This document shows, piece after piece, positions 15,630 to 54,440 of a DNA stretch of 64,000 nucleotides; position 1 is the stretch's first letter; the number at the start of each line of letters is the position of its first letter. The position numbers and the translations under genes are program-made. The stretch covers positions 1 through 64,000 of the forward strand of contig PMTR01000095.1 in NCBI GenBank assembly GCA_003167255.1, in the 5' to 3' direction. The notes beneath the pieces are model-generated. The model saw nothing but the letters and a program-made list of their open reading frames with translations. It searched no databases and was not told where the DNA came from. Source of the DNA: Bryobacterales bacterium. Its GTDB lineage: Bacteria > Acidobacteriota > Terriglobia > Bryobacterales > Bryobacteraceae.

Positions 15630-15710
15630 CTCGGAAACGGTTCGTTGGTATAGCGGCGGAGTCGCAACCAAAAAGGTGTTACCCGAAGCCCGGAGGGCGA
15701 AACAGTATAG

Positions 15711-15874
15711 CCCAGGGCGCGAGCCCTGGGTCCGCATTGCAAGTTTGCCAGCCCCGAGACGGGGCGAAAGAAGCACTCGTCTCCAGTTCTTCCGCCCCGT
15801 TCCGGGGCTCGCCTGTCTATCACGCTGTTCCCAGTGCTTGCGCACTGGGCTATGATCCGACGCCCCTCCGGGGC
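15711..15874. repeat. Array of five short perfect hairpins
   Basis: In order: CCCAGGGC/GCCCTGGG with a GCGA tetraloop (15711-15730), GCCCCG/CGGGGC with loop AGA (15751-15765), GCCCCG/CGGGGC with loop TTC (15794-15808), CCCAGTGC/GCACTGGG with loop TTGC (15830-15849), and GCCCC/GGGGC with loop TCC (15862-15874). This is an intergenic structured repeat, not a terminator of classical type. Confidence 0.75.
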
Positions 15875-15996
15875 TAAGGCTACGGAAGAATCGGCGCGCG
15901 CTGCATTAGGAGGGCTGTAATACAGTGACCGGTCATTTCAGGGACACTACACCAGGTGAGCGGCATTGGCGTTGAGGGCAATAGGCCCGCCCTACC

Positions 15997-41220: not shown

Positions 41221-42281
41221 TCCGTGAACCTCGACGGGGGAGACTAAAGAGAAGGATAGAGCGCCCGGCATACCGGCGCGTCTTCATTCCCGATAGCGCT
41301 CCACCCGCCTGAGAAACGAGTGACAGTGGGCAGGTATTGGCCTGACCCCCCAACCGGAAAAGGATTGAGCTTCCCTCCCGGTTTCGGCGGAAACTACCGG
41401 CCCCTTTCGCTTGAGCTTCCGAAGCGCAATCGGAATGCCAGCCCGGCTACTCATGGCCGCCGCACCTCTACCAGAAGTTTCAGAATAGCGAGGGCTGGCG
41501 AGCTAAGTCAACTTTCAACGCGGCTCATGATTCCGGGTGAGGCGCGGCTTGCCGGATATGAGACAGATGGGGAACGCAACCGAAATCGGGTTCGTTGGTG
41601 GGAAGATAGCTGGTTCGCTTTCTTAGAGTTGCCGGCAGAATTGGGTTCGTTTGGGAAAACAGGTTGGGCGGGCCTACGGGGCGGTTTCAGCGCGAGGGCC
41701 GGCGCCGAGGCCAAGTGTCCGAAATTGGGACTAGGTTCGTTTGGCATCACGGAGTGCCGGCGCGCATGGCGCCCGCTCAGCGACGTTGGCGTCGACGATC
41801 GCGGGATTTGGCGAAGCGTGCGCATCTCTTACCTGTTTCCATTATAGAACCCGGATACAAGCAAAACAGAGGCAAGTGTCTTATTCTAAAAGCGAAGAAT
41901 CTTGTGACCGGGGATCAGCGAAGGAGCAAATCTCGCAGCGACCAGGGGTGACCGGTTTCGCATTGTTGCCAACCGAGCAGGCCGGAGGCGGACGATTGGA
42001 ACTGGGGAGTTTGGTAGCCGGTCCCGAGTTTCCCCACGTTTTTCAATATCCGCTGAACACACCTTGGCCACGACTGAGCAACTAGTCTAGTCTAGTGTAG
42101 TGTCCAGGAATTAACTGGACAACTAAAGTCCAGCAAGGTGTGGCCGCTACGGCGGACCGTTCTGGCTGCCCCACTGCCAGAACTACGTCGCGGCTGGTGG
42201 TACGGAAACGGCGTTCGCGTCAACGCGATCGATGGCGCCGGTGTTCGTGGCGGCCCTCATAATCAAGGCGATCCGCGACAA
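41221..42281. other. Long gap with repeats and no intact gene
   Basis: About 1 kb upstream of the lysine operon. The first 60 bp should hold its promoter, which I cannot place exactly. 41560-41750 holds degenerate repeats. The rest contains short frames without recognisable families. Confidence 0.5.
41560..41750 (-). repeat. Degenerate copies of the 12-kb A module, reversed
   Basis: GAATTGGGTTCGTTTGGGAA (41638 onward) matches the reverse complement of module A (GAATTGGCTTCGTTTCGTCA) at most positions. Weaker copies occur at about 41588 (GGGTTCGTT) and 41733 (AGGTTCGTTTGG). The spacing of 70-90 bp resembles the block at 12001-12390. Confidence 0.65.
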
Positions 42282-45735: not shown

Positions 45736-45975
45736 CTACGCCTTGCCGGCGAAGCCTTCGTCTACCAGTTCCGAAATGTCGCCGCCCTTTCCGCGTAGTG
45801 CCGCCGGACGGCATATCATGCAAAGCGCTTGCAGGTTCGTGCGAACGTCGCGCGCATCCACCGCCTCGTCTTCACGGCAGACCTTTTCCGTATAGGACTT
45901 GAGAAACGTGAGATACAACTCCCGGCCGAAGCGGTTGATCAGGAACTGTTCCAGAGTCTCCTCGGGCTGCAAGGG
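45736..45975 (-). pseudogene. Remnant of an FAD-dependent amine-oxidase/protoporphyrinogen-oxidase-like protein
   Basis: The minus strand reads LEQFLINRFGRELYLTFLKSYTEKV, a good match to the NRFGRxLYxxFFKxYTEKVW segment of membrane-sugar FAD oxidoreductases. The FAD-binding N-terminus is absent and the sequence after SYTEKV does not continue the family. It is a decayed internal fragment between the GH30 gene and the receptor. Confidence 0.55.
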
Positions 45976-46084
45976 GCACACCGCGGGACCAGTCCCATGA
46001 TAATCGCGCGTTGTTTCCCCATTGCCTCGCTGTCCAGACTTGGAATCCGCAGATCTCTCTACTTGCGGCAGGCGATGCCGGCGG

Positions 46085-49000
46085 CTAAAAATCCAATCGC
46101 AGCGCCATCTGCATCTGCCGCGAATTGGTCGCAGTGGCGGTGATCTGGCCCGCACTGGACACCCGCTGGCCGGAAGAATTAAAGACCGCCAAGCCGCTGG
46201 GAACCTGAAAATTGGAGTGGTTGGTGACGTTGAAAGCCTCCACCCGAAGAGTCACCCGCAGCCGCTCCCCGGCCCATAGCGTCTTGTGTGTGGCCAGATC
46301 CAGGTCGAAAAGCCCCGGACCAGTGAACGTGTTGCGCCCCAGGTTCCCAAAGTACCCGGCGGGCTGTAGAGCGAATGCGTTGGGGTCAAACCAGTGCTGC
46401 GGATTGCCCAGGATTATTTTGGCATCCGGGGCAGCGATCAAATCGGGCCGCTGTCCTCCGTCGGTAGAGTCACCCAATCCGGTGCGGTCGAAACCCGTGA
46501 ACGGGTTGAAAGGGAATCCGCTTTGCAGGCGCATCAGTCCATGCAACTCCCAGGCGGCGAGGAAGCGGGCAACCGGGCCGCCGTGCAGTCTGGGCGCCGA
46601 CCATGAAGCGTTCAAGGTAGCATCGTGGCGCACGTCGAAGTCCGAACGGCCGCGATTGTCCCGGAGGCGGAACACCGGCACCAGGTCGGTGGTCAGGAAG
46701 TCGTCGAAAATCGGCGAAGACGCATCGTCGATGCTCTTGGAAAATGTGTAGCTTCCCTCCAGCCGGAATCCGTGAGCCATGCGGCGCTGCACGCTCCCTT
46801 GTAGCGAATGAGAGTATGAATCGAACTGCGTAGTGCGCATGCCGATGCGCCCAAATGCCGGATTCAGTTTTGGCGCTCCGGGCGCAAAATAAGCTGTGCC
46901 TCCGGCGGTGAAGGAAGGTACCGGCGTGTCGATGTTGCCGATATAGCCCGTCAGGTGGATGCCCCGGCTGCCGGCATATGTCACGCTTGCCATGGTATGC
47001 GGGCTAAGCTGGTGCTGCCAAGAAGCCTGGAACTGCAGCACGTAAGGCTGCTGCGGCGAGTACGTGAGCGAATCCATTGCCAGCAGCGCTGAACCGCTGC
47101 CGGCGGCATTGAGCGCGGCCACGGCATTCGGGAAAACCGGATTCGAAACGAGCGGCCGCAGATAAAATGGCGGCATGCGGACCCCGCTGATCAGCAGGTC
47201 CCGGCTGGATGGAAGATCGAAGAAGATGCCCGCGCCTGCCCGGAATACGGTCTTTCCCTTGCCGCCCACATCCCAGGCCGTCGATGCCCGCGGCGCAAAG
47301 TTGCGCTTCGAGGGGTTCTGGTACAAAGGGCCACCGACCGTTACGGTCTTGTCCTGAAGCGGATTGGGTATGGTGGCGATTTTTCCGTTCACCTCGGTGG
47401 GAACGCTAACAGCTTCATACCGTACTCCCGCCATCACCTGCCAGTTGGCGGACACCCGCCAGGTGTCCTGTACGAAGCCTGTGAATAACATGCTGCGCCA
47501 GCCGCGCACCGTGTCCGAACCCGCAGCCATGTAATCGAATTGGGACGGCTGGCCGGTAAGCAACTGGGCCACCGAGTTGAAGCGATAGAGCCCTACGGCA
47601 TCCTGGTCGGCACGCTCATTAGCCTGAATGCGGTCGAAGGATCCGCCGGCGAGGATGGTGTGCCGGCCTCGCGCGTAAGTCATCTGATGCCCCAGTTGAT
47701 AGTCGTTGTCGGCGTATTCGCGCGGCCGTTGGCGGTATTCCGTGCCGCCCACTTCGGTCAACCCCGTCACCGAGATATCCCCTATCGTCTGGCCGGGCAC
47801 TACATTCAGTCCGGCGGGAATGCGCGGCAGGTCCTGCGCGGTCTCGCCGTTCACAATCCGGCTGAAACCCGCACGAAACGTGTGGATCATGGACGGCGAC
47901 TCCTGAAACTGCAGCTCGTTGTGCGCGAACTGATACCGGGAAGAGCCGCTCAACTCCACCGTTTGCATCGGGTCCTGCGAGTTGGTGGATCCGTTATCCC
48001 ATGTGATCCGCGAGGCCAGCCGCCAGTGATCGTTTAAGATGGCGTCCAACTTGCCCGCTCCATAGTTCTCCGGGGTGACGCGCCGATCGGGTGCCAGGAA
48101 CACGGCCGTGCCATCGCTGAACTGCGGTCCGTTGGCGATGGGAAAAAGGGCCAGGAACGGCTTGACCGCGTTGGACACCGTCACCTGCGTGGTTCCCAGA
48201 TTTCCGGTTCGCCCCGCGTCGGACAGGGTGGTCGCCACGGTAGTCTGCGCCGAATCTTGGCGGATGGCTTCGTAGTTTAACAGGAAAAAGAGCCGGTTCT
48301 TTTTCAGCGGTCCGCTGAACAGACCGCCAAACTGGTTTCGCCGGAAGGGCGGAATCGGCTGGTTCTGCGGGTCGAAGAAGTTCCTGGCATCCATCGCACT
48401 GTTGCGCAGATACTCGTATGCCGAGCCGTGCCACTGGTTCGCGCCGGATTTGGACACGGCAGTCAGAATGGCCCCGGCCGCCCGCCCGTACTCCGCGCTG
48501 AACGGGCTGGTGATCAGCCGCAGCTCTTCGGTGCCCTCGATGCCCAGCAACCTTCCGCCGGCGCTGGACGGCGCCGAACCGGTAGCATCGTCCACGTAGA
48601 TTCCGTCGATGCGGAATCCGTTCTGGCTGGGCCGCAGGCCGTTTACGGACAGATGCAGCCCCCCGCCCGTTGTCATGTTCTGCTGGGACTGGGTGGTGAC
48701 CGGGCTACCCGGCTGCTGGGCCGCGAGGTCGAACATATCGCGGCCATTGAGAGGCAGGGATTCCAGCTTCTGGTTCCAGACGGTGCCGCCCCAATCGGCC
48801 GCCGACACCGCGACCAGAGGCGTTTCCGCGATCACTTGCACGGTTTCGCGCGTCTCGCCGATTGCGAGGCGCACGTTGGCGCGTACCGAGCTGCCCGCGG
48901 ATAAGAGAATGCCTCGCTGGACTTGGGTCACGAAGCCCGGTGAGGAGGCTTCCAATTCGTATTCGCCGGGCTTCATTCCGGAGGCCACGAAATAGCCCTG

Positions 49001-49921
49001 GCTGTCGGCCGGCACGGCCCTTTGCACCTGCGTGCCAATCTCCCGCAGCAGCAGCTTGGCATTCGGCACCGGCCTGCCGGCGGGATCCACAACGGTTCCT
49101 TCCACCGTTCCGGTGGTCTGGGCTTGCAGCCCCGCCGGCGCCATCGCCAGAACCAGCAACAAAGCAGTCATTGCGCCGATTCGGCTCCACGGGATCAACG
49201 CCAGCTCCAGCTTGTCGAGCAAGGTCTGAAACAAGAGGCCCAATAGGGCTGCCGCCAGAACCCCGACCAGCAGGTTGTCGATAGAAAGCGTCTGCCAGCC
49301 CATCCAGATCATGCCTCCGATCCCCGTCTCCGAGATCAACATCTCGGTGGATAGAGTCAAAACCAATCCGGCTCCCAATGCCACCCGCAAGCCGGTAAAC
49401 AGGCGCGGCAGGCTCGCCGGCAGGAATACATAGCGGACCTGCTCCCACCGGCCCGCTCCGTAGTTCCGCGCGAGTTCGACGTAGTGCCGGTCGATGCCCA
49501 GGGCCGCGTCCAAAGCGTGCAGCGCGCACACCACGAAACAGGTGGCGGTCGCGGGCATGATGAGGGCCGGCTCGCCCATGCCCAGCAGCAGCATGAACAG
49601 CGGCAGCAGGGTAACCTTCGGTATCGTCAGGCTCGCCGACAACAGCGGCTTCAAGGCGTTGCGCAACCCGCCAAACAGGCTCAGAGTCAGCCCGAAGGCG
49701 ATTCCCGAGGCGGACCCGATAAAGAACGCGGCCAGGGTTCGACCTACCGAGGCCGCAATGTGCCTTTGTAACACTCCGGCTTGCGTCAGGCGCCACGCTG
49801 CCGCCAGCAGTTTGGAAGGCGGCGGAAAGAACATCTGGTTGGTCAGGCCGGCCCAGGAAGCCGTCTGCCAGATGGTGATCAGGAGGGCCGGCGCGATCCA
49901 CGCTTTGGACCGCCGCATCAT
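46085..49921 (-). CDS. ABC permease fused in frame to a TonB-dependent outer-membrane receptor
   Basis: One open frame of 1278 codons. Residues 1-248 are a complete SsuC/TauC-type permease with about six helices and the EAA loop (HYVELARNYGAGRWEQVRYVFLPASLPRLFTGLR). Residue 251 is a Met starting a signal peptide (MTALLLVLAMAPAGLQAQ, ATG at 49171). Then come a carboxypeptidase-regulatory-like domain (about 270-350), a plug (about 370-530) and a beta-barrel ending in LRLDF. No stop separates the two. Either a signal-peptidase-cleaved polyprotein, or two proteins from two starts (GGAG lies 13 nt before 49171). The start overlaps the binding-protein gene (ATGA). Confidence 0.85.
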   Translation of the reverse strand: MMRRSKAWIAPALLITIWQTASWAGLTNQMFFPPPSKLLAAAWRLTQAGVLQRHIAASVGRTLAAFFIGSASGIAFGLTLSLFGGLRNALKPLLSASLTIPKVTLLPLFMLLLGMGEPALIMPATATCFVVCALHALDAALGIDRHYVELARNYGAGRWEQVRYVFLPASLPRLFTGLRVALGAGLVLTLSTEMLISETGIGGMIWMGWQTLSIDNLLVGVLAAALLGLLFQTLLDKLELALIPWSRIGAMTALLLVLAMAPAGLQAQTTGTVEGTVVDPAGRPVPNAKLLLREIGTQVQRAVPADSQGYFVASGMKPGEYELEASSPGFVTQVQRGILLSAGSSVRANVRLAIGETRETVQVIAETPLVAVSAADWGGTVWNQKLESLPLNGRDMFDLAAQQPGSPVTTQSQQNMTTGGGLHLSVNGLRPSQNGFRIDGIYVDDATGSAPSSAGGRLLGIEGTEELRLITSPFSAEYGRAAGAILTAVSKSGANQWHGSAYEYLRNSAMDARNFFDPQNQPIPPFRRNQFGGLFSGPLKKNRLFFLLNYEAIRQDSAQTTVATTLSDAGRTGNLGTTQVTVSNAVKPFLALFPIANGPQFSDGTAVFLAPDRRVTPENYGAGKLDAILNDHWRLASRITWDNGSTNSQDPMQTVELSGSSRYQFAHNELQFQESPSMIHTFRAGFSRIVNGETAQDLPRIPAGLNVVPGQTIGDISVTGLTEVGGTEYRQRPREYADNDYQLGHQMTYARGRHTILAGGSFDRIQANERADQDAVGLYRFNSVAQLLTGQPSQFDYMAAGSDTVRGWRSMLFTGFVQDTWRVSANWQVMAGVRYEAVSVPTEVNGKIATIPNPLQDKTVTVGGPLYQNPSKRNFAPRASTAWDVGGKGKTVFRAGAGIFFDLPSSRDLLISGVRMPPFYLRPLVSNPVFPNAVAALNAAGSGSALLAMDSLTYSPQQPYVLQFQASWQHQLSPHTMASVTYAGSRGIHLTGYIGNIDTPVPSFTAGGTAYFAPGAPKLNPAFGRIGMRTTQFDSYSHSLQGSVQRRMAHGFRLEGSYTFSKSIDDASSPIFDDFLTTDLVPVFRLRDNRGRSDFDVRHDATLNASWSAPRLHGGPVARFLAAWELHGLMRLQSGFPFNPFTGFDRTGLGDSTDGGQRPDLIAAPDAKIILGNPQHWFDPNAFALQPAGYFGNLGRNTFTGPGLFDLDLATHKTLWAGERLRVTLRVEAFNVTNHSNFQVPSGLAVFNSSGQRVSSAGQITATATNSRQMQMALRLDF

Positions 49922-50976
49922 GACTGGCCCCGGTGCGAGCGCTCCAGCCAGCGCAGATCCACCATCCCTTCGGCCTTAGCCGGCTGACTATACCCCTGCT
50001 GGTTCGCCCAGTCGATATACTTCTGCAAGTCTTCGATGCGCACGGAGCCGTCCGGGACGAGACTGGTGCGGCAGGTCTTCAGCACTAACTCGCGTTCCAG
50101 CCCGTTCTCGCGGATATATCTCTCGAAGTAATCCGGGGTGGCTCCGGCCAGGTATTCGCGGGTGCCGCGGAAATAAGCCTTCAGAAAATCCGCGCCCAGT
50201 TCCGGATCGCCGTCCAGCAGGCTCTTGGCAAACAGGATGTACGAATACTGCTGACCGGACACGAGTCGCGCCGCCGCATCGTTGCGCAGGAACTCTTGCC
50301 GCCGCGCGCCCAGGTCAATCGGGAGACCGAACCCGTTGATCATGGCATCGACGCCGCCCGACAGGAGAGCTGCCAGCGCCGCGGCTTTGTCCATATACGC
50401 CGTTTTGACTTCGCCCGCCGCCACGCCCAGGCGCCTGCGGAGCGCATCGAAAGCAAATTCGTCGATGCCCCCCCTGTTTTGCACGGCGACGTGTTTCCCG
50501 CGCCACGCCAGCGCGTCCCCATCTCCCGCCGGGAACCGGGCCGTGCGCTCGTAAAGGAAGCCAACCTCTCGACAGCCGACCACATACTCTCGCGCCGCCG
50601 CGATACGGAGCCTGGCGCCTTGCGCCAGCATGTTGAACAAGCTGGGCGCACTGCCGAGGAAGCCCACGTCAAGGGTCCCTTGAGCCAGCAGAGGCATCAC
50701 TTCGGTCGCGGAGCGCGTGACCCGGATGGCGATGTCGAATCCCGCCGAGCGAAAATAGCCCCGCTCATGGGCCAGATAGAACGGGCTCATAGCGAGGTAG
50801 GGACCCAGCGCCACCGCCAGTTTGCGCACGCCTGCCTTTCTAGCGCGGCCACAAGCCGCGGCGGCTCCCGCCGGCAACATCAGAAACCGGCGGCGGTCCA
50901 ATCCCCGCCCTAACACGCGGCTCCGGGCGGAGCCGGGCCAAGAGGGAATGCCGTCAGGGAATGGTCTCTTCGGCAT
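49918..50976 (-). CDS. SsuA/NMT1-type ABC substrate-binding protein
   Basis: 352 residues. A Tat-type lipoprotein signal, RRRFLMLPAGAAAAC, ends with a lipobox-like Cys. The NMT1/SsuA-like fold follows: LAMSPFYLAHERGYFRSAGFDI, LLAQGTLDVGFLGSAPSLFNMLAQG, WRGKHVAVQNRGGIDEFAFDALRR and ALLSGGVDAMINGF. Relatives bind sulfonates, nitrate, thiamine precursors, riboflavin or aromatic acids, so the ligand is open. It lies 4 bp from the upstream ANL gene and overlaps the permease. Confidence 0.88.
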   Translation of the reverse strand: MPKRPFPDGIPSWPGSARSRVLGRGLDRRRFLMLPAGAAAACGRARKAGVRKLAVALGPYLAMSPFYLAHERGYFRSAGFDIAIRVTRSATEVMPLLAQGTLDVGFLGSAPSLFNMLAQGARLRIAAAREYVVGCREVGFLYERTARFPAGDGDALAWRGKHVAVQNRGGIDEFAFDALRRRLGVAAGEVKTAYMDKAAALAALLSGGVDAMINGFGLPIDLGARRQEFLRNDAAARLVSGQQYSYILFAKSLLDGDPELGADFLKAYFRGTREYLAGATPDYFERYIRENGLERELVLKTCRTSLVPDGSVRIEDLQKYIDWANQQGYSQPAKAEGMVDLRWLERSHRGQS

Positions 50977-50980
50977 GTCA

Positions 50981-52576
50981 CTATCGCCTCCCCGCTTTCG
51001 CGTGCTGCCGGGCCCCCTCTCCCAGCAGATGCAGCGAAAGCACTTTGCCGGCCCTGGTTATTTCCGGTTCTTCCAGCACTACGGCCAGCGCATCACCGTG
51101 GCGCCACTCGCGCACGGTCAAAGAGCCCCCGAACAAGGCGCGCACTTCCTTCAGGAAGAACTCCCGCACGGCAGCGGCATCCTTGGCTCCGGTTCGCGGA
51201 CTCACTCGCAAGACCAGTTTGCCCAGCCCCTCGCTTTCGGCTTCCACCAGTTGATAGTCGGCCGGCGAGCCTCCGAACCGCTGCGGAAGGCCCCGCTCCA
51301 GAACGCGGAGGATGTCGCTGCCTACCAGCGTGGCCCCGTAGCCGGTCAATTTACTGAAGCTGAAGATGCCGTCGACCTGGGTCCGGTAACCCAGTCGGGA
51401 CAACACGCAGTCGCACGATGCCGGACCTACCACTCCGTGGTCGTCCATCTCCACGTTGATCAGCAGCCTGGGGTTCAGCGGCAACAGCGTGGTGAAGTGC
51501 AGCGATTGCACGGGCGCCCCGGACAACGGAGCCTCCCGTTCCACCGCAATGACGGCCACGTTATCTTCGAAGACATGGACGCAGTTGCCGCGCATCCGGC
51601 TACAGCCGTATCCAACGGTTCCCATCTCGCTGATGAAATAGTTGGGGTGCACCTCCGCGCCGCTCTGCTCGATGAGCTCGCGCTTGGCCTCGGTGAGCGC
51701 TTCTCCCCCGGTAAGGAAGATCACCCCGGCGAGCGAGACGCCCATCTCGATCGCCGCCGCGGCCACCCGCACAGTGGGGCTCACGATGCCCCAGACCACC
51801 GATTTCCGGCCGCGCGCGCTGACCTTCTCGAGGTGCCTCACCACCGGCGTAAAGTCGTTGGACGGCAGGTATTCCGGCCACGGGATGGCCGTTCCCAGTA
51901 ACTTGGCTTCCGCCACCAGGGCACGCGTCACCACCCGGTAATGGCCCGTATCGCGCATGTTGCCGCCCACCGCAAACCAGCGGCTGACGGGGAGTTCGAC
52001 GTGTTGCAACGCTCGGGCAGTGGTAAACGCGTAGGGAGCGGGAAGGATGGGAAACAATAGAATGCACTCCCGACCCGCCAGGCCAAATTCCTCCGCCAGC
52101 ACGGCCTCGTAGCAATTCCGGTATGCCCGGTATGCCGTGCTATGAGGGGTGGACGTTCCGGCGCTGCGGCTGCCCCCCGACCGCGATGTCCAATGGCCGC
52201 CGTTACCCCGTTTCAGAAAGCTGTCCCCGTTGCCGGGGATTTCCCGCCCGTGGCGCACAATCGGACGTTTGCCCTTCAACTCGGCGTGCAACAGGTACAC
52301 TCCGGAATCTCTTAACTGCCGCAGCGTTGCTTCCAGGCCTCCGCTACGCACCGAGTTCTCGAAGTCGCCGTACTGGCAGCCGGCCTGTTCGAACATGATC
52401 CGGTAGGGATGGTCCGGCGTCGCAAACACGTAGTCCCGCACCTGGGCGGCGAACCGTTCCACGCGATGTTCGATTTGATCCCGCAACCTGCCGCGGGGAT
52501 CGGCCGGCGGGGGCAGTCGCAGAATATCGAACAGCCCTCTGGCCATCCGCGTGTAGTAGACCGCCTCTTTAAGCAT
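50981..52576 (-). CDS. ANL-superfamily adenylate-forming protein (PaaK/LuxE-like), function unknown
   Basis: 531 residues. The region GHWTSRSGGSRSAGTSTP stands where ANL enzymes have their Ser/Thr/Gly phosphate loop. FLTGGEALTEAKRELIEQSGAEVHPNYFISEMGTVGYGC matches the adenylate-binding part of PaaK/LuxE-like proteins, and the C-terminal subdomain (about 420-530) follows DGIFSFSKLTGYGATLVG. It may activate a carboxylic acid as acyl-AMP, passing it to CoA or a protein. Encoded between the ABC ATPase (8-bp overlap) and binding protein, so its substrate is probably what the transporter imports. Confidence 0.75.
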   Translation of the reverse strand: MLKEAVYYTRMARGLFDILRLPPPADPRGRLRDQIEHRVERFAAQVRDYVFATPDHPYRIMFEQAGCQYGDFENSVRSGGLEATLRQLRDSGVYLLHAELKGKRPIVRHGREIPGNGDSFLKRGNGGHWTSRSGGSRSAGTSTPHSTAYRAYRNCYEAVLAEEFGLAGRECILLFPILPAPYAFTTARALQHVELPVSRWFAVGGNMRDTGHYRVVTRALVAEAKLLGTAIPWPEYLPSNDFTPVVRHLEKVSARGRKSVVWGIVSPTVRVAAAAIEMGVSLAGVIFLTGGEALTEAKRELIEQSGAEVHPNYFISEMGTVGYGCSRMRGNCVHVFEDNVAVIAVEREAPLSGAPVQSLHFTTLLPLNPRLLINVEMDDHGVVGPASCDCVLSRLGYRTQVDGIFSFSKLTGYGATLVGSDILRVLERGLPQRFGGSPADYQLVEAESEGLGKLVLRVSPRTGAKDAAAVREFFLKEVRALFGGSLTVREWRHGDALAVVLEEPEITRAGKVLSLHLLGEGARQHAKAGRR

Positions 52577-53339
52577 GCATGGCCTGCTCCTTCGCCGGCG
52601 CCAGTTGTTTGAGCACTTCCCGCTTGATGGCCACGAACTCCGGGCTAGTGAGATCCCCGGTATTGCGGGGCTGGCTCAGCGGGACCCTGAGTTGCAGTTC
52701 CATCTTGCCGCCGGAGGGCGACATCACCATCACACGATCGCTCAGCAGGATGGCTTCATCGACATCGTGCGTCACGAATATCACGGACATGGAAGTGGGC
52801 TGCCACAGCGCCAACAATTCCTGCTGTAGCTCCAGCCGCGTCTGCGCATCCAAAGCGGCGAAGGGTTCGTCCATCAGCAGCAGCGCCGGCTTGCACAGGA
52901 AGGCGCGAATCAGGGCAACGCGCTGGCGCATGCCGAGCGACAGCTCCGAGGGCCAGGCACGCTCGCGGCCCGCGAGGCCGAATTGTTTCAACAGCCGCAG
53001 CGCTTCCGGCTCCCGCTCTTCGCGCTCCACGCCTCTCATCGCCAAACCGAAAGTGGCGTTCTCCAGCACGCGCATCCAGGGAAATAGGCTGCTCTCCTGA
53101 AAGACCAGCAGCGTGTCCGAATTGGGGTCGTCGGGATGCGGAATGAGCTCGATGGTGCCGCTCGAAGGCCGCACCAACTGCGCGATGGAGCGCAGCAGCG
53201 TTGTCTTGCCGCAACCACTCGCACCGATAATGGAAACGAATTCGCCGTGGTTGGTGGCGAAGGTCACGCCGTCCAGCGCACGGGTTTCCGTTCCCTCCGA
53301 TCTAAACGTGACGCCTAGACCGTTACAGTCCGCCCTCAT
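52569..53339 (-). CDS. SsuB/TauB-type ABC transporter ATPase
   Basis: 256 residues. Walker A GASGCGKTT, Q-loop VFQESSLFPW, signature LSLGMRQRVAL (usual LSGGMRQR, so the third position is Leu), Walker B LLLMDEPFAALD and the switch His in FVTHDVDEA. It powers import with the permease domain encoded three genes downstream. First gene of the operon; the 138-bp gap to the glycosyltransferase gene should hold the promoter (AT-rich, CATATAGTTTATAAG). Confidence 0.93.
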   Translation of the reverse strand: MRADCNGLGVTFRSEGTETRALDGVTFATNHGEFVSIIGASGCGKTTLLRSIAQLVRPSSGTIELIPHPDDPNSDTLLVFQESSLFPWMRVLENATFGLAMRGVEREEREPEALRLLKQFGLAGRERAWPSELSLGMRQRVALIRAFLCKPALLLMDEPFAALDAQTRLELQQELLALWQPTSMSVIFVTHDVDEAILLSDRVMVMSPSGGKMELQLRVPLSQPRNTGDLTSPEFVAIKREVLKQLAPAKEQAMHA

Positions 53340-53477: not shown

Positions 53478-54440
53478 CTATCCGGCGCTCCGGAACCTGG
53501 TCCTCCCCCATGCCAGCGCTTTCTCAAACAGGCTTCGGGGCAATAGTGCGCAACCCACAGCCGCTGCCAGGATCATCCAGTTCCTGTCGTCGGCCAATGC
53601 CCGCCGGGGTGCCCTGGAAAAGGCGGACAGGGCGAGCTTCAGGGCGTTCGCCGAGTCTCCCTGCTCGCAGGCGAGCGCCGCGAAATAGCGGCGCATGTTG
53701 CTGTCGGCCACGGGAAGAATTTGCGCCACCGAACGGGGAGCGTAGCCGGGAACCTGCCGCAGCAGATATTCCCATTCGCGCCTCACCTCCCGCCACTCTC
53801 GAGACATCTGGCCCGTATGGCGCCGGTACAGAGTAAGATAATGCGGCACCGCGCGGCAGTTGCCGGGACGCAGTGCCGCGACACGCCAGCACAGATCCGC
53901 GTCATAGACGCGGCGATACGATTCGTTGAAGGCTCCAACCTTATCCAGGGCGTTCTTGCGAACCGCGATGGCTGAGGTATTCCCCACTACGAAGTCTTCC
54001 ACCAATTGCTCGAAAGAGATGGTTCCAACCCAAGCCCGCGATGGCAGCCCCAGGTTCAGGCCATTCTCATCGATCATGCGCGACCAGTCGAAGGTAAGGT
54101 CAATCTCGCTGTGCTGCGAGAGGCATTGCGCGTGCGATGCGAGTTTCCCGGGGAGCCACAGGTCGTCGTGATCCAGGAAGGCGATCACCGAGCCGCGGGC
54201 CCGAGCCAAGCCGGCGTTCAAGGCCGCAGGCGCGCCCCGTTGCTCCTGCCGGAAGATGCGGATACGCGGGTCCCTCAGATCGCTGACGGATTCCAGGCAG
54301 CCATCGCTCGACCCGTCATCGATCAGAATTAGCTCGAAATCCGAAAACGTCTGCGCCAGGACCGAATCGACCGCCGGCCTGAGATAGGGACCGGCGTTGT
54401 GCACGGGCACCAGCACAGAGGAGAGCACCTCAGTTGCCAT
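53478..54440 (-). CDS. Family 2 glycosyltransferase
   Basis: 320 residues. GT-A fold: SSVLVPVHNAGPYLRPAVDSVLAQTFSDFELILIDDGSSDG, the metal-binding FLDHDDLW, and acceptor-side YDADLCWRVAAL. The C-terminal 100 residues are helical and may associate with the membrane (AAAVGCALLPRSLF). It transfers a sugar from a nucleotide donor, probably in cell-surface polysaccharide synthesis. Overlaps the upstream GT2-GT39-like gene by 11 bp, so the two form an operon. Confidence 0.92.
   Translation of the reverse strand: MATEVLSSVLVPVHNAGPYLRPAVDSVLAQTFSDFELILIDDGSSDGCLESVSDLRDPRIRIFRQEQRGAPAALNAGLARARGSVIAFLDHDDLWLPGKLASHAQCLSQHSEIDLTFDWSRMIDENGLNLGLPSRAWVGTISFEQLVEDFVVGNTSAIAVRKNALDKVGAFNESYRRVYDADLCWRVAALRPGNCRAVPHYLTLYRRHTGQMSREWREVRREWEYLLRQVPGYAPRSVAQILPVADSNMRRYFAALACEQGDSANALKLALSAFSRAPRRALADDRNWMILAAAVGCALLPRSLFEKALAWGRTRFRSAG

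Follow-up and report, generated by a model that had tools for sequence, protein, structure and literature searches.

The stretch of DNA analyzed here, a window of 64,000 nucleotides from a Bryobacterales contig, raises the question of why the gene for an adenylate-forming enzyme should lie among those of an ABC importer and a TonB-dependent receptor, and whether these proteins serve one substrate. Our findings lead us to propose, with moderate confidence, that the genes form a self-contained uptake-and-activation module, in which a scarce carboxylate would be imported with the help of TonB and then adenylated. The set is kept in related bacteria, in some of them with a different inner transporter, and therefore looks like a genuine uptake module.

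The operon consists of four minus-strand ORFs between positions 46085 and 53339 of the window, successively joined by an 8-nt overlap, a 4-nt gap, and a 4-nt overlap, exactly the spacing that the earlier note had given, and its claim that the genes are made together is borne out to the extent that a single operon with a dedicated receptor is supported. A scan for promoters and terminators returned counts close to those of shuffled sequences. The first gene (52569..53339) encodes a 256-aa ATPase of the SsuB/TauB/SaoA type of ABC importer (Pfam ABC_tran, 2.5e-29), whose best NCBIfam matches, SaoA (8.7e-63) and TauB (7.4e-58), are both under the family cut-offs and whose Walker A motif GASGCGKTT and signature LSLGMRQR can be read off the sequence. 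It is followed by the gene for the 531-aa enzyme (50981..52576), assigned to the PaaK fold from a family profile and an AF2 model, by that for a 352-aa substrate-binding protein of SsuA/NMT1 fold (49918..50976; Pfam NMT1, 3.7e-12), and by a last ORF of 1278 aa (46085-49921). Residues 1-250 of this ORF are an importer permease of the SsuC/TauC type (49172..49921; Pfam BPD_transp_1, 2.8e-17, residues 73-239), and the SsuABC-type set of ATPase, permease, and NMT1/SsuA binding protein is complete within the operon. The remainder is the TonB-dependent receptor (46085..49171), with a CarboxypepD_reg domain, a plug (6.7e-4, under the Pfam cut-off), and an OMP_b-brl_4 barrel (6.8e-156).

The 1278-aa frame is open and has no stop, in agreement with an earlier description as a permease-receptor ORF, and taken at face value it would encode a fusion working as a single envelope-spanning protein. 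We consider this extremely improbable, as a stop separates permease from receptor in all seven relatives examined (L033, L034, L036, L038, L040, L083, and L094; gene calls in the relatives' loci come from a codon-usage script), and the receptor retains its own start, M251 (base 49171), followed by a signal peptide-like stretch, MTALLLVLAMAPAGLQA. Independent initiation or cleavage by signal peptidase would therefore separate the two proteins. Since the receptor has its own start and the relatives have their stops, we count the ORF as two genes, and five in all, and read the joined frame as private to this genome, probably produced by faulty assembly or by the disappearance of a stop.

The enzyme matches no Pfam model at E 0.001 and no NCBIfam model, and a single-sequence search of solved structures found none. 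A profile built from an alignment of 29 homologues finds PaaK-type structures (4r1l, 6.6e-10), and the AF2 model (mean pLDDT 88) has a PaaK fold, with PaaK2 as its best solved relative (2y4o; Z 25.7, rmsd 4.5, 401 of 531 residues aligned) and BT_0428 as its top Foldseek match (2.2e-18). The match to PaaK2 is remote, at 16% identity, and this counts against the uptake-and-activation reading. Among 43 homologues, D379 and K511 are invariant (43/43 each) at the places expected for the A7 Asp and the A10 Lys, the A5 acid E317 is Glu in 37 and Asp in 6, and G135 (A3) is found in 39 of the 41 rows having a residue there, the glycine-serine P loop being nearly universal; the A3, A5, A7, and A10 names are ones that we presume for these positions, beyond what the alignments show. 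Because these residues are conserved, the ATP site, whose absence the earlier note had regarded as fatal to its proposal, is kept. The note's label of PaaK/LuxE-like stands in its first half, through fold and profile, and lacks support in its second, since Pfam gave no match at E 0.001 and LuxE is absent among the seven families listed for the 29 homologues at E 1. Fold and ATP-site motifs, which are like those of PaaK1, PaaK2, BT_0428, NatL2, and ClxA, point to a PaaK-family member of the ANL enzymes, for which adenylation is predicted. It differs from that family in its low (16%) identity, in being about 100 residues longer, and in conserved motifs of its own, DEFKG and KLTG.

The sequence of the binding protein agrees with its earlier description as Tat/lipoprotein: a twin-arginine signal and a lipobox cysteine are present in all eight Bryobacterales binding proteins whose N termini were read by eye (those of the window, L033, L034, L035, L036, L038, L040, and L044). 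Moreover, C135 and C302 are invariant in 11 binding-protein sequences. Its AF2 model (pLDDT 82) resembles SsuA (2x26; Z 25.5, rmsd 2.8, 280 residues aligned) and PqqT (Z 22.0), and its SsuA_fam score is 42.7 against a cut-off of 163.5. Folds of this kind are shared throughout the SsuA/NMT1/PqqT class, and the matches do not name a ligand.

Enzyme homologues occur in 15 of 61 near genomes and, at a strict limit, in 13 of 297 genomes across the phylum, a count that includes this genome and two weak, partial matches. The subfamily of the binding protein, delimited at 1e-15 beforehand, has 11 matches in 9 of the 61 genomes, and all 11 adjoin an enzyme gene; co-occurrence of enzyme and binding protein by genome has a Fisher value of 2.9e-7, relatedness ignored. 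Enzyme, binding protein, and permease are present at all 11 loci, ATPase and receptor at 9 each, and all five genes at 7, so that the conservation of the genes as a set, without which the earlier note would have given up its idea, is found in the neighborhoods of these 61 genomes. The exact gene order of the window recurs in L033, L034, and L038, making 4 loci of the 11, and varies elsewhere. No ATPase lies near the operon in L036 and L037 and no linked receptor in L042 and L055, while the receptor of L037 and the enzyme of L055 (G010) are in pieces; these incomplete loci, and with them a second, broken enzyme copy in G031, count against uptake and activation, as does the absence of the enzyme from the sole genome of the same genus (82% complete). 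In other families of the phylum, the enzyme is found with ABC genes in L083, L088, and L094 and with the binding protein only in L070. Outside the phylum, no plasmid matched, and a scan of genome contigs returned two loci only, corresponding to G005:C2 and G031:C35.

In addition to the ABC importer, we found a second partner of the enzyme. Its more distant homologues adjoin a transporter of the Nramp fold (PF01566, 1.1e-38 in L050 and 1.3e-36 in L052), often together with a receptor (L046, L050, L052, L053, and L039). This Nramp subfamily, delimited at 39% identity or more, a limit chosen after the gap to the next matches (31-32% or less) had been seen, has eight members in the 61 genomes, and all eight adjoin the enzyme. 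One or both importer subfamilies are present in 13 of the 15 genomes that bear the enzyme and in none of the 46 that lack it. The receptors divide in the same way: in a tree of 30 rows, the ABC-type clade and the Nramp-type clade each have a support of 100, and the two are joined at 99, apart from 15 other receptors. The receptor of the window falls in one clade with nine other ABC-type receptors (SH-aLRT 100), a clade whose members include L107, an unlinked receptor of G053. That receptor (L107:6065-10487) lies away from its operon and adjoins another Nramp-like gene and an MFS-looking gene. The next-nearest receptors elsewhere (L097-L106, L109, and L110) have no enzyme or importer of the system nearby, save a weak 29-bit ATPase match in L100.

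These partnerships bear on the possibility that the enzyme gene is only a passenger, which belongs to some unrelated biosynthesis, happens to lie in a transporter operon, and shares no substrate with it. The variable gene order would fit such a passenger, as would the 18 of 43 enzyme homologues in the tree that have no such importer nearby (some on short contigs; the number is 19 with L056, where the ATPase appears to be unrelated), and activation is therefore not always tied to import. On the other side, each of the two importer subfamilies is found, within the 61 genomes, beside the enzyme and nowhere else, and one enzyme of the ABC clade, in L039, has the other importer, an Nramp transporter with an Nramp-type receptor. 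We therefore regard the passenger explanation as quite improbable. Since both ABC and Nramp importers partner the enzyme and sister receptors, enzyme and receptor are the constant elements and the inner importer is the exchangeable one. This leads us to suggest, tentatively, an undescribed modular uptake system of the Acidobacteriota that has a TonB receptor and a PaaK-type enzyme as its core and, interchangeably, an ABC importer or an Nramp-fold importer devoid of a metal site. If so, an Nramp-fold protein would carry an organic substrate, and the imported acid would be trapped by adenylation.

While Nramp relatives carry metal ions and are in this respect a poor fit with an organic acid, the partner clade is without the usual metal ligands. 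The TM1 DPGN motif reads GPQD in L050 on comparison with solved Nramp chains, and Gly takes the place of the TM6 Met, with the other members looking similar in this respect; among the eight members, six have GPxD at the DPGN position, one has GTGD, and one is shortened by its called start. The Asp of DPGN and the Met of TM6 are what we take to be the metal ligands of Nramp proteins. Further noncanonical Nramp genes of these genomes likewise lack DPGN, so that this loss does not set the partner clade apart from them. The altered metal-ligand positions of that clade weigh against the alternative that the system takes up a metal or a metal chelate, with the PaaK-fold enzyme, and in some loci methyltransferases, building or recycling an acid-based chelator. 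The Nramp-fold partner itself, present at eight loci as a subfamily found nowhere else in the 61 genomes, speaks for metal uptake, and PaaK-type ligases use aryl acids in natural-product pathways (structure entries of NatL2 and ClxA). Moreover, Nramp genes are reported within lanthanide-dependent XoxF3 clusters of Acidobacteria (PMC10875860). The ABC binding protein, however, resembles binders of organic anions, and the operons hold no larger assembly line. We consider metal uptake unlikely.

Under uptake and activation, the substrate would be small and scarce, most probably a carboxylic acid, and the receptor would move it through the outer membrane on TonB energy. The membrane-anchored binding protein would then deliver it to the permease and ATPase of the ABC importer, whose transport is presumably directed inward. 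The PaaK-fold enzyme, co-translated with the importer, would adenylate in the cytoplasm the very acid that had been imported and transfer it to an acceptor such as CoA or a carrier protein, leaving it trapped; in related genomes, the Nramp-fold transporter would take the place of the ABC importer. If this is right, a single transferable set of genes joins outer membrane capture, inner membrane import, and chemical trapping, and does so in a phylum that is difficult to cultivate and has numerous TonB receptors, most of them without a known substrate. Through the exclusive partnership, the substrate of the enzyme, if identified in vitro, would also name those of both receptor clades and of the unusual Nramp clade.

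Known systems share parts of this arrangement. The ATPase, permease, and binding protein have the families and folds of SsuABC/TauABC/NMT1-type importers, to which the module adds the PaaK-fold enzyme and a dedicated receptor, while the window operon has no sulfonate-cleaving gene. In Pseudomonas putida, the SftP receptor is paired with the SsuABC-type importer AtsRBC for sulfate esters, in the manner of the module, but is not known to include an adenylating enzyme, and sulfatases lie near few of the loci studied here. FadL and FadD, in vectorial acylation, couple outer membrane uptake to activation by an ANL-type ligase, as the module may do; the module differs in its TonB-dependent receptor, its primary active importer, and an enzyme of the PaaK rather than the FadD type. 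Operons that combine an ABC importer for aromatic acids with a CoA ligase also exist, such as the p-coumarate genes of Rhodopseudomonas palustris, and like them the module holds importer and acid ligase in one gene set, but it includes a receptor and has no degradation genes in the operon. PqqU and PqqT are described as a system for PQQ uptake (PMC12124388). Like the module, they comprise a receptor and a binding protein, the latter with the same fold in both. In sequence, the window receptor is not close to PqqU (NF041535, scoring 18.6 bits where the cut-off is 1200). We know of no adenylating enzyme in that system. Receptor with SsuABC-type importer and importer with acid ligase are thus each known in kind, and each part of the module comes from a known family. 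To our knowledge, the combination of receptor, importer, and enzyme has not been described, nor has an exchange of ABC for Nramp importers; searches of the literature on Acidobacteria, TonB receptors, PaaK, Nramp, and related subjects, mostly at the level of abstracts, returned no description of the gene set.

As to the fate of the activated acid, the flanking genes offer clues. Of 69 genes lying no more than three genes away from an ABC operon, 6 encode methyltransferases, 4 family 2 glycosyltransferases, and 3 flippases (one of 70 genes, the binding-protein piece L042:8872-9120, was excluded). None of the three is among the 25 families listed for 73 farther genes; the comparison is small and shows, out of 131 and 182 families, the 25 most frequent. 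These neighbors favor a biosynthetic over a degradative use, and the product of the module probably goes to biosynthesis. Two glycosyltransferase genes lie just upstream of the window operon, the nearer one (53478..54440, minus strand; Pfam Glycos_transf_2, 4.2e-30) 138 nt away, and in L038 a 50% identical copy of it follows the receptor gene, overlapping its end. The upstream gene is a possible partner only. The same genes could indicate salvage of surface glycoconjugates, in which an acyl or aryl group, set free at the cell surface or by neighbors, would be recovered and reactivated for attachment to a glycan exported by a flippase. Flippases adjoin the operon in L083, L088, and L094, and flavin amine-oxidase (UGM-like) genes are found in some of the same areas. 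The pattern is seen, however, in only 5 of the 15 ABC-type loci compared, with no acyltransferase identified, and we judge salvage to be rather improbable. A short minus-strand ORF in the window (45736-46155) resembles part of the flavin amine oxidase (UGM-like) beside the L088 operon; it has no Pfam match and, by eye, is probably a remnant.

Two other candidates were set aside. Sulfatases near L042, L053, and L055 had raised uptake of sulfate esters, yet they make up 2 of the 69 near genes, which is no signal given how rich in sulfatases this group of bacteria is. A methyltransferase family, c8, was considered as an obligate partner: 9 of the 11 genomes bearing it carry the enzyme (Fisher 1.3e-5, relatedness ignored), but just 4 of its 12 copies are found no more than 5 kb from the enzyme, and others adjoin different adenylating enzymes. 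Its likeness to the DVU_1556 methyltransferase is far under the NCBIfam cut-off, and we rejected that identification as well. In L119, L121, and L124, c8 adjoins adenylating enzymes with AMP-binding, carrier, and thioesterase domains or a DVU_1553-like PaaK, so that small acyl-activating clusters may perhaps form a broader family. The broken enzyme copy of G031 (L033:9241-10682) also adjoins a c8 gene; it is in three pieces and looks decayed.

Across the 16 sources scanned, no riboswitch that might name the substrate lies beside the operons: seven ABC loci gave none, and in seven Nramp-type loci together with the ABC-type L083 the matches were limited to tRNAs and one group II intron. Elsewhere in the window, two Acido-Lenti-1 RNAs, one on each strand (15687-15730, minus; 15830-15875, plus), are separated by about 100 bases. 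Far from the operon, a lysine riboswitch (41286-41478, minus strand; 76 bits) stands ahead of genes that, by eye, resemble those of lysine/diaminopimelate biosynthesis.
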